The notes under the pieces were generated by a model. The model had not been told where the DNA came from, did no database searches, and saw nothing but the letters and a program-made list of their open reading frames with translations. Both the position numbers and the translations under genes were made by a program. Positions 4,182-21,729 of a stretch of DNA of 41,362 bases are shown here, piece by piece; position 1 is the stretch's first letter; each line of letters begins with the position of its first letter. The stretch comes from a virus. The DNA lies in the IMG/VR virus record IMGVR_UViG_3300007909_000001, positions 1 through 41,362 of that record; one strand, given 5' to 3'.

Positions 4182-4825
4182 GAAAGTTAAAAGTGTTGGA
4201 ACTGTTTGCAGGAACTAGAAGTATCGGTAAAGCCTTTGAATCCCAGGGACATGAAGTGTTTTCAGTTGAGTGGGACAAGCAGCATGAAAATATTGATTGG
4301 TATGCGGATATAGGTACGATCACCGCAGCGGACATCATTGAAAGGTTTGGAGTACCTGACGTAATATGGGCATCCCCGGACTGTACATCTTATTCAATAG
4401 CAGCGATCTCCCATCACAGGACACGGGAAGAGGACGGGAATCTTGCACCCAAGTCCGAATACGCTAAGTTATCCGATGCAGTAAACGCAAACGTGTTGAA
4501 GCTTATCTATGATTTACAGCCGAAATACTACTTTATCGAGAATCCTAGAGGTGGTATGCGGAAAATGGCGTTTATGTCCGGCTTACCACGCTACACTGTT
4601 TGGTACTGCCAATATGGGGATACAAGGGCCAAACCGACAGACCTATGGACGAATCATCCGTATCCACAATTCAAACCCGTCTGCAAGAACGGGAATAAGG
4701 ATTGTCACCACGAACCTGCACCTAGAGGTAGCAAAACTGGCACACAAGGCCTAAAGAATTCCCTGGAACGTTCAAGGATACCGTCAGAGTTGTGCGAACA
4801 CATAGCAAGAATATCAGAACAATAA
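4178..4825 (+). CDS. Orphan C5-cytosine DNA methyltransferase-like protein
   Basis: A 215-residue protein with the fold markers of DNA cytosine-5 methyltransferases. Residues 6-16 (VLELFAGTRSI) match the AdoMet-binding motif I. WASPDCTSYS (65-73) takes the place of catalytic motif IV, with Cys69 as candidate nucleophile. ENPRGGMRK (121-129) matches motif VI. The motif IV wording (PDC rather than PCQ/PPC) and the short length, with no clear large target-recognition region, fit a divergent phage subfamily. No restriction enzyme is adjacent, so it more likely protects phage DNA or regulates than forms a restriction-modification pair. Confidence 0.8.
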   Translation: MRKLKVLELFAGTRSIGKAFESQGHEVFSVEWDKQHENIDWYADIGTITAADIIERFGVPDVIWASPDCTSYSIAAISHHRTREEDGNLAPKSEYAKLSDAVNANVLKLIYDLQPKYYFIENPRGGMRKMAFMSGLPRYTVWYCQYGDTRAKPTDLWTNHPYPQFKPVCKNGNKDCHHEPAPRGSKTGTQGLKNSLERSRIPSELCEHIARISEQ

Positions 4826-4905
4826 AAAGAACCGTCTGCAAACGGTCCTAGTTTGAAACGAAACCTATTCACCACCATTTTACCACACAAAGGGAGGATA
4901 TATAC

Positions 4906-5439
4906 ATGCATGAACTACAAAATAGTGAAGTCGAAGAAAAAGTACGCTTCGAAATCACGGATATAGGCAGCTTGAATTGGGTGTTTCGCGAAGTATTAAT
5001 CCCGTTGAAATCCGAAATCGAAACAAACAAAGCGTTAGCTAAAGCGGAAATCGAACGTGTGAATAAATGGTTGGAAGATGTGAATAAATCCAATTCGCAA
5101 AAAGTCGAAGAATGGGAACAGCGTATTCAAGATTATCACTTCCACACATTGTTAAGCGACCCGAAAGCTAAAACGCTATCTACTCCATACGGTAAAAGTA
5201 AATCCAGAGCATCGAAAGCAGCTCCAGAACAAGCTGATAAAGACGCCTTGCTCGTCCATCTCTTAAGTAATGATATGCAGGACTATATCAAGAAAGAACC
5301 GATGTGGGGAGATTTTAAAAAGTCGTTATCCGTTGCGAATGTCGACGGTGTTCTAACCGCGTTCGATGAAACTGGACAAGCAGTTCCTGGGGTAGTTATT
5401 AAACCGGATTCGATTAGCTTTTCTGTCGAGGTGACGTGA
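4906..5439 (+). CDS. Gam-like host-nuclease inhibitor
   Basis: A 177-residue protein resembling Mu Gam-like phage proteins, which bind double-stranded DNA ends and block host exonucleases. A helical N-terminal half with a long coiled segment (about residues 35-80) is followed by the family-typical KTLSTPYGKSKSR region at about 89-101. AGGGAGGATATATAC precedes the ATG. It opens the recombination-replication run, one base ahead of the ATPase gene, which fits a role in protecting DNA ends during recombination. Confidence 0.72.
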   Translation: MHELQNSEVEEKVRFEITDIGSLNWVFREVLIPLKSEIETNKALAKAEIERVNKWLEDVNKSNSQKVEEWEQRIQDYHFHTLLSDPKAKTLSTPYGKSKSRASKAAPEQADKDALLVHLLSNDMQDYIKKEPMWGDFKKSLSVANVDGVLTAFDETGQAVPGVVIKPDSISFSVEVT

Positions 5440-5440
5440 A

Positions 5441-6160
5441 ATGAAAATCACCAATGCCGAAAACATCACGAAAGATAAAGCTACTTACCTTCTGTATGCG
5501 GCGCCAGGCATCGGGAAAACGCACACTATCCGATTCTTACCGAAAGACGAGAGAGTGTTAGTTATCGACATTGACAAAACATCTCACGTTCTAAAGGGAG
5601 AAAAAAATATTGACGTGCTAGACTTCCCGACTGAATCAGCATGGACATCGTGGACGGAGTTATTGAAGATGCTGAAAGGTGGACTGGCCGACGAATACGA
5701 CACGATAGTAGTAGACAATATTTCAGAGTTGGTCAGAGCAATGTTGGCCGAAGCTGGAAGTACCGGAAAAAATAAAGGTGCACCGGAGTTGGCTCACTAT
5801 AACAGATTAGATTTCTTCTTAATGAGGGAAGTTGTTCGAGCCATCAAGGGGTTAGATAAAAGGGTTGTTTTCCTCGCTTGGGAGATGACAGACGAGTGGC
5901 AGACCTCAGCAGGACAAACTTTCAATCGAGTGTACCCACACTTTCGAAAAACGATACTGGAGAACCTAATGGGGTTGTGCGATGTGGTCGGTAGATTAGT
6001 GTATGTCCCTGAATCGGGTAATAGAGGATTCTACTTGCAGCCGAATGACGAAATGTTCGCGAAAAATCAGTTGGATGCCAGGAAGAATTGCTTGCAGGAG
6101 GATATTTTCAAGGTTGGATATGTACCAAGTAAGGGTGGTGCCGATGTTCAAACTCCATGA
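5441..6160 (+). CDS. RecA-like phage ATPase (Sak4-type, AAA_24)
   Basis: A 239-residue nucleotide-binding protein of the phage family that includes Sak4 recombinases. The Walker A is AAPGIGKT (about residues 24-31) and the Walker B is DTIVVDNISEL. It is a single RecA-like core of usual length. Sitting between a Gam-like gene and an SF2 helicase, and not far from an SSB-like gene, it probably acts in single-strand annealing or recombination-dependent replication. The biochemical role is inferred from the family. Confidence 0.8.
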   Translation: MKITNAENITKDKATYLLYAAPGIGKTHTIRFLPKDERVLVIDIDKTSHVLKGEKNIDVLDFPTESAWTSWTELLKMLKGGLADEYDTIVVDNISELVRAMLAEAGSTGKNKGAPELAHYNRLDFFLMREVVRAIKGLDKRVVFLAWEMTDEWQTSAGQTFNRVYPHFRKTILENLMGLCDVVGRLVYVPESGNRGFYLQPNDEMFAKNQLDARKNCLQEDIFKVGYVPSKGGADVQTP

Positions 6161-16447: not shown

Positions 16448-16873
16448 ATGAAAACACTAAACAAACACGATATCCAAAAGCTTGAAGAATACTGGTCCAA
16501 CTATAAACAGAACAAGCAGCAACTTAAATACCGCGAATGGGAGTTAATGAGCCGTAACTCTGACGACGAAAACACGGGTGGTGGCGCAAACTCTGTCCGT
16601 ACAATCTCTAAGCCGACCGAGCAGCTTGCAACACGATTGATAGAGGATAAGCTGTATCAGAATCTAAAGCAGATTACGCACGTTGTGGAGAGCCTATATC
16701 ATGAGTCCGAAGGAGACTTGAAGGTCATTGTGGACATGCGATATTGGGATGCTGAACGTAATTGTTATGAGTGGGAAGAAATTGCCGATCAGTTGAATAT
16801 GTCCAGGAGTAAAGTGTTGAGGTTGCGGAATGGGCTGTTGGATGATACTGCTGATTTGATTGGGTGGGTTTGA
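16448..16873 (+). CDS. RinA/ArpU-type late-gene transcription activator candidate
   Basis: A 141-residue protein resembling the sigma-factor-like late regulators (ArpU/RinA-type) of Gram-positive phages. The N-terminal half is charged and helical; the C-terminal half (YEWEEIADQLNMSRSKVLRL) is a helix-turn-helix like sigma region 4. It is the last regulatory gene before the packaging operon, the usual location. It would switch on late transcription at a promoter near 17130. The family match is by motif and position, not exact. Confidence 0.68.
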   Translation: MKTLNKHDIQKLEEYWSNYKQNKQQLKYREWELMSRNSDDENTGGGANSVRTISKPTEQLATRLIEDKLYQNLKQITHVVESLYHESEGDLKVIVDMRYWDAERNCYEWEEIADQLNMSRSKVLRLRNGLLDDTADLIGWV

Positions 16874-16962
16874 TGGAAGTCTGGACGTGGACATTTATTC
16901 TCGGACTCGCAATTGGTGTAATGCAGGGCGTTACCATTGGTAGATGGAGATGGAAGAAGTGA
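16873..16962 (+). CDS. Tiny membrane peptide
   Basis: A 29-residue peptide whose first 23 residues are mainly hydrophobic (WTWTFILGLAIGVMQGV), with a basic end RWRWKK. The ATG overlaps the stop of the activator gene (TGATG). The stop lies inside the left arm of the first dyad of the next region. Confidence 0.4.
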   Translation: MEVWTWTFILGLAIGVMQGVTIGRWRWKK

Positions 16963-17114
16963 ACTTGTTAACACCAAGGAAGTTCACTCTCATCTGTAGT
17001 AATCTGATAGAGTAGGTTTCTTAGATGGTGACCTACTCATTTCCCCTCTTTTACATCCGCATACACGGCACATAGTGAAAGCTATGTAGAACTGCGCTAA
17101 CGGGTATGCGGATG
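16958..17114. other. Row of strong dyads (structured RNA or late-control DNA)
   Basis: Three successive perfect inverted repeats: AGTGAACTT/AAGTTCACT (16958-16966, 16980-16988), GAGTAGGT/ACCTACTC (17010-17017, 17031-17038) and CATCCGCATAC/GTATGCGGATG (17054-17064, 17104-17114). The third encloses ACATAG/CTATGT (17070-17075, 17082-17087). Loop 1 contains CACCA (16972-16976) and loop 2 contains TGGTG (17026-17030), so the loops could pair. This may be a structured RNA, or binding sites for the late activator, because the right arm of the third dyad lies at the -35 position of a candidate promoter. It is not a tRNA: arm length and spacing do not fit. Confidence 0.6.
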
Positions 17115-17129
17115 ATTCTTTTAAACTAA

Positions 17130-17135
17130 TATACT
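17130..17135 (+). promoter_or_regulatory. Candidate activator-dependent late promoter (-10)
   Basis: TATACT is a good -10, but the -35 position (17107-17112) holds part of the dyad arm GTATGCGGATG instead of TTGACA. A -10 without a -35 behind an inverted repeat is expected for a promoter that needs a bound activator such as the protein encoded at 16448. Transcripts would start near 17142 and meet the terminator at 17154 at once. Confidence 0.35.
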
Positions 17136-17153
17136 TAATCCAATACAATCAAG

Positions 17154-17183
17154 GCTGCATCCAATCGGGTGTGGCTTTTTCTT
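17154..17183 (+). terminator. Rho-independent terminator before the late genes
   Basis: GCTGCATCC (17154-17162) and GGGTGTGGC (17167-17175) pair along 9 bp using three G-U wobbles, with a 4-base loop, followed by TTTTTCTT. It would end early/middle transcription, or a short leader from the candidate late promoter. Confidence 0.65.
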
Positions 17184-17297
17184 ATACATATGAAAGGTGG
17201 TGGTCAAACTGTTCGCTGTTCAATTAGATACAACGGAAAGGATTTGATCCATCATCTCGGTTGATTGTTCCGTCATGCAATCGTAAGGAGTGAAGCA

Positions 17298-17381
17298 ATG
17301 ATTACCACTGGCTTAATACTCACAGCATTCATAACGATTCCTCTACTACTACTCATAAGCAAGGTGAAGAAACATGGCTGA
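17298..17381 (+). CDS. Tiny membrane peptide ahead of the HNH gene
   Basis: A 27-residue peptide, MITTGLILTAFITIPLLLLI then SKVKKHG, one hydrophobic helix with a basic end. TAAGGAGTGAAGC is an excellent ribosome binding site. The stop overlaps the start of the HNH gene, which suggests translational coupling at the head of the late operon. Role unknown. Confidence 0.5.
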   Translation: MITTGLILTAFITIPLLLLISKVKKHG

Positions 17382-17706
17382 ATACAAAACAAAAGAACAA
17401 CAAAAGAAATTCTATAACACTAAATCTTGGAATGGTAAGAACGGATTACGAATGCAAGCATTGAAGAGAGATAATTTTGAATGTAAAATGTGTGCGGCTG
17501 AGGGAAAAGTTCATCTCGATTCCATTAAAGAAAAAGGTAAACGGAAATCAATTGAGTTAAACGTTCATCACATAAAAGAAATAGAACATCATCCGAATCT
17601 TGCGCTTGCGTTGTCGAATTTAATTACTATCTGCTTACAACATCACAACGAAATCCACGACAGATACAAGCCAAGCGAAACATTCGTAAGAGATGAAAGA
17701 TGGTAA
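17374..17706 (+). CDS. HNH endonuclease of the packaging module
   Basis: A 110-residue HNH protein with a zinc site (CKMC at residues 37-40, with Cys87 and nearby His) and the HNH core (LNVHHIKEIEHHP ... LSNLITICLQHHNEIH). HNH proteins placed directly upstream of terminase genes, as here, are known to work with the terminase in cutting cos-type phage DNA. It is therefore more likely a packaging factor than a homing enzyme. GGTGAAGAAAC precedes its ATG. Confidence 0.88.
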   Translation: MAEYKTKEQQKKFYNTKSWNGKNGLRMQALKRDNFECKMCAAEGKVHLDSIKEKGKRKSIELNVHHIKEIEHHPNLALALSNLITICLQHHNEIHDRYKPSETFVRDERW

Positions 17707-17865
17707 TTGTCGTTATAGTTAAAACAATTAAAACAATCTAAACAAACATTAATTCTCAAATACCCCCCATCTCTGAATTGTGTCTTTTAAATAAACAATA
17801 AAGACCGCTGGGGTGAAGAAAAAAGACATATATTGATTTATTCGCGTATAAATACTTGGAATTAA
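17707..17865. other. Candidate cos region
   Basis: This gene-free gap between the HNH gene and the small terminase is the usual place for cos. It contains three tandem 9-mers: TTAAAACAA (17719-17727), TTAAAACAA (17728-17736) and TCTAAACAA (17737-17745), candidate small-terminase binding sites. A C-run (CCCCCC, 17763-17768) and a G-run (GGGG, 17810-17813) flank an A/T-rich core. The exact cut position cannot be read from sequence alone. Confidence 0.45.
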
Positions 17866-17889
17866 ATGGAATTTAAAGGAGGGAGGAAA

Positions 17890-18219
17890 TTGAGTGGTGT
17901 AAACTTGGATGTTATTGATAATGTCGACAAGTCACGCGACCGAATCAAAAGAGGATTACTCAATCAATTATCAGCCGATGGCGTTGACGGTGAGCATTAC
18001 ACAGATATGATTGACAAGTATTTGACTATGTGGGATATGGCCCAGGCATTAGAAAAAGACTTTCGCGAAGAAGGCGTAAAAATCTTCTCCAATACTGGAT
18101 CTAAAATAAATCCTTCAGTACCTGAGTATGCAAGGACGAATAATCAAATGCTGCGGTTGCTTTCTGAATTAGGATTGAAGCCCGTAAGACAAGAGCCTGA
18201 AGATAATGAAGGATATTAA
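17890..18219 (+). CDS. Terminase small subunit (P27 family)
   Basis: The DNA-recognition subunit of the packaging motor, P27-like, 109 residues from the chosen start. It has helical segments (DKSRDRIKRGLLNQL, then HYTDMIDKYLTMWDMAQALE) and the family-typical tail VPEYARTNNQMLRLLSELGL. A TTG start at 17890 is preferred because AAAGGAGGGAGGAAA lies directly before it; the ATG at 17866 would place this site inside the gene. It overlaps the large subunit by 14 bases. Confidence 0.85.
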   Translation: MSGVNLDVIDNVDKSRDRIKRGLLNQLSADGVDGEHYTDMIDKYLTMWDMAQALEKDFREEGVKIFSNTGSKINPSVPEYARTNNQMLRLLSELGLKPVRQEPEDNEGY

Positions 18220-19831
18220 ACATAACAAGTACATCACAGAATATATACAAGCTGTCGAAAAAGGCGAAATCGTAGTTAATGAAGATGTTAGGAAACTGAT
18301 CTCTCTTGTGGAAGAAAAACTAGCGCGGGACGACGTAGTGATTGACGACGAAGCGGTTGACGATGCAATCGAATCTATCGAGAAGTATTTCCCGTTCAAA
18401 TTATTCAAGTGGCAGAAGTTTGTAACGGCTTGTATGTTCGGACTTTTCTTTGATGACGGTTCGCTAGTTTTTAATGAGTTCCTTCTATATATGGGACGAG
18501 GAGCAGGAAAGAATGCATTCCTCGCAGCACTTGCATTTCACTTTTCCGGCAAACAAGATATTCGGGGATACAATGTGGATATCGTGGCCACATCCGAAAA
18601 ACAAGCAAAGACTTCATTCAATGACTTGAAAGATGTATTAGAAGATCATTGGGATGTATTCAAGAAACACTTTAAGAAAACGATGGAAGTCATTCGTCAT
18701 TATAAAACTAAAGCAGAAGTAAGTTATTACACGAATAACGCAAAAACAAAAGATGGTTTCCGTCCTGGTGTAGTCGTATTCGATGAAATCCACGCCTATG
18801 AGACGGAAGACAATATAAAAGTATTTACATCCGGCCTTGGTAAAGTCCCACGTCCACGAAGAATCTATCTGACCACAGACGGAAATGTTCGTGATGGATT
18901 CTTGGATCAAATGAAAGAAGAAGCCGAACGCGTTTTGAATGGCGAACTTCCAAATTCGAGAATGTTCCCGTTTATGTGCAGACTCGATGATCCCGAAGAA
19001 TACCATGATTTCAGAATGTGGGAGAAAGCTAACCCATCCATTGAATACATGCCGGACTTGAAGCTAGAAATGAAGCTTGAATATGACCGCATGAAAGAAC
19101 GTCCATCTGCGCGTATTGAGTTCATGACTAAACGGATGAACATACCCTCTCAACTCTCACAGGATGGCGTAGCAGATTGGGACAAGATAGCGGCAACCAA
19201 TCAACCCTTTCCGGACTTTACGGGGGCTGAGTGCATCGGCGGTATTGACTATGCTGATACGCGGGACTTTGTTGGTGTCGGATTGTTATTCAAAAAGGAT
19301 GGCAAGCGATACTGGAAGAGTCACACGTTCATCAATCATCGTTCGCTGCAACTAACGAACTTTAGGATGGATATTGAATTAGCAATCGAGCAAGGGCTTG
19401 TCACTATCATCCACGAAGAAACAAATAAACCCGAAATAATAGCGACGTGGTTTTTGGAGCAATCTAAGCTGTATAACATTAAGAAGATTACAAGTGATAT
19501 GTACCGTATCAATCACTTACGAGAAGTATTTGAGGAATACGGCTTTACTCTCGATATTGCACGAAGCGGAACCAAGACGCATACCCAAATGCAACCAATC
19601 ATAGAAGAAATGTTTGCATACAAAAACATCGTATTCGGTAACGATATGATGATGCGGTGGTATGTCAATAATACGTATGCAAAGTATGACGGTAAAGGAA
19701 ATATCACATATGAAAAAATTGAGCCGAAGACGAGAAAGACTGACGGTTTTTTTGCATTCCTTCACGCTTTACAGTTTGATATGGAATTGAATGAAAGTAG
19801 TGAGTTTTTCCTTGATTCTATTAGGTTTTAA
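18206..19831 (+). CDS. Terminase large subunit
   Basis: A 541-residue packaging motor ATPase and nuclease of the HK97-like Terminase_1 family. The ATPase half shows LLYMGRGAGKNAFLAAL (Walker A) and VVFDEIHAYE (Walker B). The nuclease half shows GGIDYADTRDFVGVGLLF with its metal-binding aspartates. It has the usual length and order, and stands directly after TerS and before the portal. It pumps DNA through the portal and cuts it at cos. Confidence 0.95.
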   Translation: MKDIKHNKYITEYIQAVEKGEIVVNEDVRKLISLVEEKLARDDVVIDDEAVDDAIESIEKYFPFKLFKWQKFVTACMFGLFFDDGSLVFNEFLLYMGRGAGKNAFLAALAFHFSGKQDIRGYNVDIVATSEKQAKTSFNDLKDVLEDHWDVFKKHFKKTMEVIRHYKTKAEVSYYTNNAKTKDGFRPGVVVFDEIHAYETEDNIKVFTSGLGKVPRPRRIYLTTDGNVRDGFLDQMKEEAERVLNGELPNSRMFPFMCRLDDPEEYHDFRMWEKANPSIEYMPDLKLEMKLEYDRMKERPSARIEFMTKRMNIPSQLSQDGVADWDKIAATNQPFPDFTGAECIGGIDYADTRDFVGVGLLFKKDGKRYWKSHTFINHRSLQLTNFRMDIELAIEQGLVTIIHEETNKPEIIATWFLEQSKLYNIKKITSDMYRINHLREVFEEYGFTLDIARSGTKTHTQMQPIIEEMFAYKNIVFGNDMMMRWYVNNTYAKYDGKGNITYEKIEPKTRKTDGFFAFLHALQFDMELNESSEFFLDSIRF

Positions 19832-21002: not shown

Positions 21003-21729
21003 ATTCGGCTTCAAAAATCAACAATATAATAAAGACTTATCAAGTATCCCTCATAATTTCTCAGCCGATCATGATGACGAAAAAGGCGTGACGGAACTAA
21101 CGATTTACGGTGATATTGGGGAATCATGGTTTTGGGATTCGACATCAGCGATAGATGTAGATAACGCATTGAAGAACGCAGGCGACAATGATTTAGTTGT
21201 TCGATTAAATAGCCCTGGAGGATCAGCATTTGACGGTATTGCGATATACAACAGATTAAATGACCATAAAGGTAAAGTAACTGTCCATGTAGATGGATGG
21301 GCCTGTTCTGCAGCTTCCGTAATTGCTATGGCGGCAGATGAACTAATCATGGGAGCCGGTTCCATGTTGATGATTCACGAAGCAAGTACGATTGTTTGGG
21401 GTAATAAAGGCGACTTTAGAAAAGAAGCCGAATTACTTGAAAAACTAGAGGATGGAATCATTGACATTTACATGACAAAAGCCAATATTACTCGTGACGA
21501 AATTCGTGATATGGTCAATGCGGAAACGTGGTTTAGTGCGAACGACGCTTTAACAATAGGCTTTGCTACTTCTGCTGCTGCTGCAACAACAACTGTGGAA
21601 GACGACAAAGAAGTTTCTCAATTAAAAGTACAAATGTTAGCTATGCAAAGTGAATTAGATCAATTGAAAAACATAGAACCGGAAAAGCCAGCGCCTGTTA
21701 AACAAAACAGAGCATCTAGGCTTTTTTAA
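20986..21729 (+). CDS. ClpP-type prohead protease
   Basis: A 247-residue serine protease of the ClpP/S14 class that processes the prohead. VRLNSPGGSAFDGIAIYNRL is the substrate-side loop, GWACSAASVIAMAA holds the nucleophilic serine (about residue 108) and MLMIHEAS the histidine (about 131). A glutamine/leucine-rich helical tail may act as scaffold. The GTG at 20986 is chosen for AAAGGAGGTGAAAATA. It precedes the capsid gene, as expected. Confidence 0.92.
   Translation: MTVKRKFGFKNQQYNKDLSSIPHNFSADHDDEKGVTELTIYGDIGESWFWDSTSAIDVDNALKNAGDNDLVVRLNSPGGSAFDGIAIYNRLNDHKGKVTVHVDGWACSAASVIAMAADELIMGAGSMLMIHEASTIVWGNKGDFRKEAELLEKLEDGIIDIYMTKANITRDEIRDMVNAETWFSANDALTIGFATSAAAATTTVEDDKEVSQLKVQMLAMQSELDQLKNIEPEKPAPVKQNRASRLF

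Follow-up and report, generated by a model that had tools for sequence, protein, structure and literature searches.

In phage lambda, the late promoter pR', with the Q protein, is followed by a short leader and the terminator tR' before the late genes. Gram-positive siphophages carry late promoters of the RinA/Ltr/ArpU/Alt type (phi13 P23, and TP901-1 Alt as cited in PMC13123087). In the S. aureus phage phi13, Ltr acts through repeats at -107 to -42 to activate a late promoter located directly 3' of the Ltr gene (PMC13123087); leader RNA and terminators are not discussed in that paper, from which the words 'terminator' and 'leader' are absent. HK022 put, B. subtilis EAR, pLS20 conAn2 and Tn916 canT are cis-acting structured RNAs, each opening a long operon with internal terminators (PMC11658703, PMC8955417). 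The conAn2 and canT elements act in Gram-positive mobile elements (PMC11658703, PMC8955417), and intrinsic terminators within an operon are regarded as a good indication of processive antitermination (PMC8955417).

The DNA analysed here (the window) is a virus record of 41,362 nucleotides, the nearest relatives of which point to Planococcaceae-type hosts. Between its late activator and packaging genes it contains a row of dyads, which an initial annotation took for a possible new structured RNA. The features of this region are:

16448..16873, plus strand: late transcriptional activator of the RinA/ArpU/Alt family (phrog_36, E = 1e-28)
16958-16988: SL1, with arms 16958-16966 / 16980-16988 (9 bp, perfect); the putative DNA operator dyad is 16960..16987, its core GAACTT-N13-AAGTTC at 16961-16985
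17005..17013, plus strand: predicted late-promoter extended -10 (TGaTAGAGT), 22 nt past the operator, in line with the consensus TATTATGaTAGTAT of 47 promoters
17010-17038, no strand assigned: SL2, arms 17010-17017 / 17031-17038 (8 bp, perfect), overlapping the -10 as well as the predicted start
17054..17114, plus strand: SL3, conserved leader RNA, arms 17054-17064 / 17104-17114
17151..17178, plus strand: intrinsic terminator of 12 pairs, past the late promoter and ahead of the late genes
17374..17706, plus strand: HNH endonuclease, the first recognisable late gene
17866..18219, plus strand: terminase small subunit, TerS (Terminase_4, E = 1.4e-9; phrog_5110, E = 1e-26)
18206..19831, plus strand: terminase large subunit, TerL (phrog_9, E = 1.5e-130)

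The locus resembles the RinA/Ltr/ArpU/Alt promoters in that an activator of this family (phrog_36) is coded immediately upstream of the late promoter, repeats lie just upstream of the -10, and packaging, morphogenesis and lysis genes are the genes under control. It differs from phi13 P23 in its site, a single long dyad as opposed to four direct repeats. As at lambda pR'-tR', a short leader and then a terminator separate the late promoter from the late genes, and a phage protein is, by prediction in the window, bound beside the promoter. Unlike the Q system, the locus showed no Q homology, its RNA leader is structurally conserved, and its characterised relatives need the activator for promoter activity.

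By analogy, the window leader and an unrelated leader of Lysinibacillus elements may be likened to put, EAR, conAn2 and canT, as structured RNA (SL3 or the Lysinibacillus leader) stands at the predicted transcript start and intrinsic terminators lie inside the downstream operon. At about 60-80 nt both leaders are smaller than these elements, and neither matched them in sequence or in Rfam (plasmids were also searched), although put, conAn2 and canT may be absent from Rfam. The cabRNA of staphylococcal phages is likewise a structured RNA from the late/terminase region, but it arises within terS-terL, whereas the window leader lies upstream of HNH (PMC10686824).

The regulator and promoter class is known; the leader RNAs seem not to have been described before, as far as the searched libraries and papers go, and the function proposed for them is hypothetical. 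Our best explanation is that the block controls the late operon of a Firmicute temperate phage by means of operator, promoter, SL3 leader and antitermination; taken as a whole, we consider its chances about even. If it is true, RinA/ArpU/Ltr phages, among them staphylococcal and streptococcal phages by which virulence genes are moved, use an RNA antitermination step for their late genes that went unnoticed because the late promoter was regarded as a plain case of activation.

Operator and late promoter

The inverted repeats of 9, 8 and 11 bp listed in the initial annotation, together with an enclosed 6-bp stem and a terminator, were all found in place. Their block forms the window's densest 500-base bin of perfect dyads of at least 8 bp (3/27), and 236 nt of it fold at -71.4 kcal/mol, compared with a shuffled mean of -50.6 (z = -4.5, 0/200 shuffles as low). 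Searches of Rfam with the block, at gathering and relaxed thresholds, returned chance matches only, none of them credible. That no protein gene occupies the block holds for 16963-17168, in which there is no plus-strand ORF of at least 30 aa; SL1, however, starts inside a short ORF of 29-32 aa, upstream of its stop codon (16960-16962). In our reading, the row is an operator, a promoter, a leader and a terminator, and not one RNA.

The activator has a C-terminal domain resembling sigma region 4 (AlphaFold model, pLDDT 83). Foldseek compared the model with sigma region 4 at a probability of 0.99 but with E about 1, and the fold search yielded no match at E <= 0.001. By tblastn, matches to the activator were found in 253 phage records.

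Behind RinA/ArpU genes in 46 related loci we found a dyad of the form GNACTT-N11-13-AAGTNC; Lysinibacillus, Psychrobacillus and Staphylococcus phages have dyads of this kind. Across all 47 nonredundant promoters of the set, the site stands at a fixed distance from the -10 hexamer, 22 nt in 36 and 23 nt in 11, as in the RinA/ArpU/Ltr class; the hexamer usually conforms to TGnTAnnnT, with TGn present in 39/47. The dyad stays beside the promoter despite genes inserted behind the activator gene, at distances of 4 to 784 nt. Changes in the half-sites are Watson-Crick and symmetric: at the variable position 2 both arms change together (AT 10, CG 10, GC 5), and the G-U pairs expected of an RNA hairpin are absent from this position among 27 distinct operators. 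The loop, TTAACACyA, is also kept in Lysinibacillus. Fixed spacing, symmetric half-site changes without G-U and a retained loop together strongly support SL1 as a protein-binding palindrome, the putative DNA operator of the late activator. We note as a caution that palindromic operators which co-vary with their activator can be mistaken for RNA covariation.

Because the -10 stands at a fixed 22-23 nt after the operator dyad, the late start is predicted near 17020 (about 17019-17021). Lysinibacillus loci back this placement, as the same leader there lies some 10-11 nt after the -10 of unrelated promoters. The operator and promoter assignments are, on these sequence comparisons, strongly supported. 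Start-site dyads resembling SL2 occur in the nearest relatives, and the enrichment of such dyads is modest, those of at least 7 bp being present in 7/47 loci versus 2.6 in shuffles.

Two leader RNAs

SL3 is built of an outer helix, an inner GAAA-type hairpin (stem ACATAG/CTATGT) and a conserved ACTGYRC, and its arms pair perfectly over 11 bp or at 93% over 14 bp. It occupies the same position in a second phage (L002) and in a Planococcaceae-type prophage (L153 = L168). In L002, where the activator is 99% identical, SL3 is kept with a changed loop; in the prophage it is kept with a rewritten outer helix (CATCCGCATACACG/CGGGTATGCGGATG versus CACTCACATACACG/CGTGTATGTGAGTG). All 22 of 22 pairs are standard in all three sequences, four having changed on both sides, while a control in which the partner was slid by up to 3 columns left at most 52% paired. 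A covariance model of SL3 (R2) recognised the three sequences at E below 1e-18. Among the tested loci and 261 Planococcaceae-type genomes R2 found nothing else convincing, with one strong match in the genomes, and a viral scan with the SL3 core gave, besides L135, just apparently coding false positives (L171-L174).

The prophage locus L168 carries an activator of phrog_248, not phrog_36, has GTGGCAG direct repeats as its operator and is without SL1. Since SL3 is kept there while both activator and operator differ, it is under a constraint independent of either. SL3 is thereby supported as a genuine leader RNA, with three sequences known and two distant analogues, and the expectation of a new structured RNA may be retained for SL3, given its compensatory changes and its same slot in another phage, but not for SL1, read here as a DNA operator. 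L022 and L021 contain similarly laid out hairpins with ACTGTGC at the corresponding position; their relationship to SL3 is suggestive only. Separately, L002 (3890-4010) and L021 (3470-3600) have in common a block of ~110 nt beyond the leader (CTTGAAGACT...AATAATCGCGG...GTAGTCTTG), which may be a further structured element.

In Lysinibacillus prophages and phages the slot of SL3 is occupied by an unrelated leader RNA, of which we collected 30 distinct sequences:

L127:10467-10547, also in L131 and L175-L206: Lysinibacillus leader, hairpin plus H-type pseudoknot

Its parts are a hairpin (GCGYACGGAAATRCGY), a second hairpin (CACGT-TCGCTTGT-ACGTG) and an H-type pseudoknot (GCTTGT/ACAAGC). Over the 30 sequences 98% of pair cells are paired, and covariation reaches 0.160 compared with 0.123 in shuffles (0/500 reach the observed value). 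G-U cells exceed A-C cells by 36 to 3, which argues for a plus-strand RNA. The leader is found behind several promoter types, and in 24/30 sequences a terminator comes no more than about 100 nt after it; 17 of these 24 terminators, which vary in sequence, start 6-8 nt 3' of the pseudoknot (0.6 expected from shuffles). In the loci checked, variable cargo genes follow, and then HNH, TerS and TerL. The second hairpin is present twice in some copies (L149, L184, L200), and in L131 a TIR-domain-like protein is coded amid the cargo genes between late leader and HNH (4824-5624). Annotated phages, plasmids and Rfam contained no match to this leader. Its model, R3, found one match over 399 genomes of the class; it did not match the window leader and matched the L021 hairpin weakly (E = 0.43). 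Two unlisted RNA motifs are thus gained, one of them a pseudoknot conserved in 30 sequences, and both are directly testable.

Terminators, proposed antitermination and alternatives

In 32/44 activator-family loci a strong terminator follows the predicted late start at a distance of at most 400 nt, compared with 0.7 in shuffles; 12/44 had none above threshold, and in L002 the first to pass lies about 600 nt downstream. Four Lysinibacillus-type loci have 3-5 plus-strand terminators between leader and TerL. The late operon of the window holds more, intergenic or at gene ends, near 21722, 25127 and 37038, and the plus strand of the window's first 17 kb contains just two weak candidates (274, 620). 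The window terminator itself (17151-17195, CACATCC...GGGTGTGGCTTTTTCTTATGCA) recurs in L007, L148, L150, L151, L158 and L159; in related prophages it often follows small cargo genes, at times twice per locus.

We propose that the SL1 dyad serves, as DNA, as the binding site (about -59 to -35) of the RinA/ArpU-type protein encoded upstream, which brings RNA polymerase to the extended -10 promoter at 17005-17013. The transcript from near 17020 would carry SL3 and then reach the terminator at 17151-17178, where early or stray transcription would end. Polymerase from the activated late promoter, bearing the leader RNA and possibly the activator, would be modified so as to pass this terminator as well as later intergenic ones, and so reach HNH, TerS, TerL and the morphogenesis genes. 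Because late transcription must cross a terminator after the late start, we infer that the leader may be a cis-acting antitermination (or attenuation) element, and an antitermination leader fits best among the options raised in the initial annotation. The simplest reading is that antitermination is set at the promoter by the leader RNA, by the activator in the manner of Q, or by both; involvement of the RNA is favoured because it persists where activator and operator have been replaced. Leaders differ between phage groups, which weakens the case for one common mechanism, and the internal terminators could simply be leaky, tuning gene dosage. The generalisation that many Firmicute temperate phages use exchangeable late leader RNAs, of the SL3 type or of the hairpin and pseudoknot type, to make polymerase terminator-resistant, such that late control combines an activator with RNA antitermination, is accordingly worded here as a tentative one, somewhat short of an even chance; leader RNAs acting in this way would be new in Gram-positive phages.

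Antitermination by the activator itself, loaded onto polymerase from its DNA operator while the leader RNA merely times or stabilises the process, would suit the promoter-operator-terminator order seen at lambda pR'-tR' and the sigma-4-like fold of the activator. Yet SL3 and the Lysinibacillus leader are kept where activator and operator change, which points to a constraint on the RNA itself, and Pfam, PHROGs and PDB sequence searches gave no Q family match; we regard this course as unlikely. Slightly more doubtful still is that the compact conserved leader, with its terminator close behind, serves as a small RNA which mostly ends at 17178 or after SL3, where a U-rich run occurs (in L168, SL3 is followed by TTTTCTTTT), and has a trans-acting or decoy role. 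The late genes would then depend on leaky termination, but terminators recur further down the operon, and no other promoter was shown between terminator and HNH to serve these genes.

In Bacillus, hairpins close to the 5' end are known to be stabilising, and the leader hairpins might on this precedent shield an ordinary long late mRNA from 5'-end decay, the terminator being a weak remnant of an old moron; the interval between activator and HNH is indeed a hot spot for cargo genes, where many terminators of this sort occur. Stabilisation, however, needs neither the conserved loop, nor ACTGYRC, nor the pseudoknot sequence, and terminators follow closely after the start in most loci, so that we hold it improbable. 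Least credible, and in our estimation very improbable, is the original proposal of one ncRNA that spans the row, derives from the 3' end of the early transcript and has SL1 and SL2 kissing. The 13-nt loops do share a 5-nt complement (CACCA/TGGTG), but such a match also arises in 7-11% of trials with shuffled or random loops, a rate near the chance estimated at the outset, and it is therefore not significant. Furthermore, the predicted late start lies 3' of SL1 and of the 5' arm of SL2, so the kissing pair could not form in the late transcript, and the overlap of SL2 with the -10/start region leaves the complex unsupported. An origin in the early transcript is contradicted in L168, which lacks SL1 and where a terminator (1178) follows the early genes before the promoter of the leader is reached. 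We return to antitermination at an activated promoter as the preferred reading of the block.

The dyads were also considered as a cos site; they are probably not one, because the annotated 3' cos overhang of the related Psychrobacillus phage Spoks comes after HNH. By likeness to Spoks, the probable cos region of the window is 17706-17866. Upstream of HNH, a 5' region containing a GATTG/CAATC dyad is strongly conserved between the window (17246-17296), L007 (2940-2990) and L148, and may reflect translational control or plain homology of the HNH cassette. At 17297-17381 of the window, a small ORF with a good ribosome site, predicted to encode a membrane peptide (MITTGLILTAFITIPLLLLISKVKKHG), overlaps the start of HNH.
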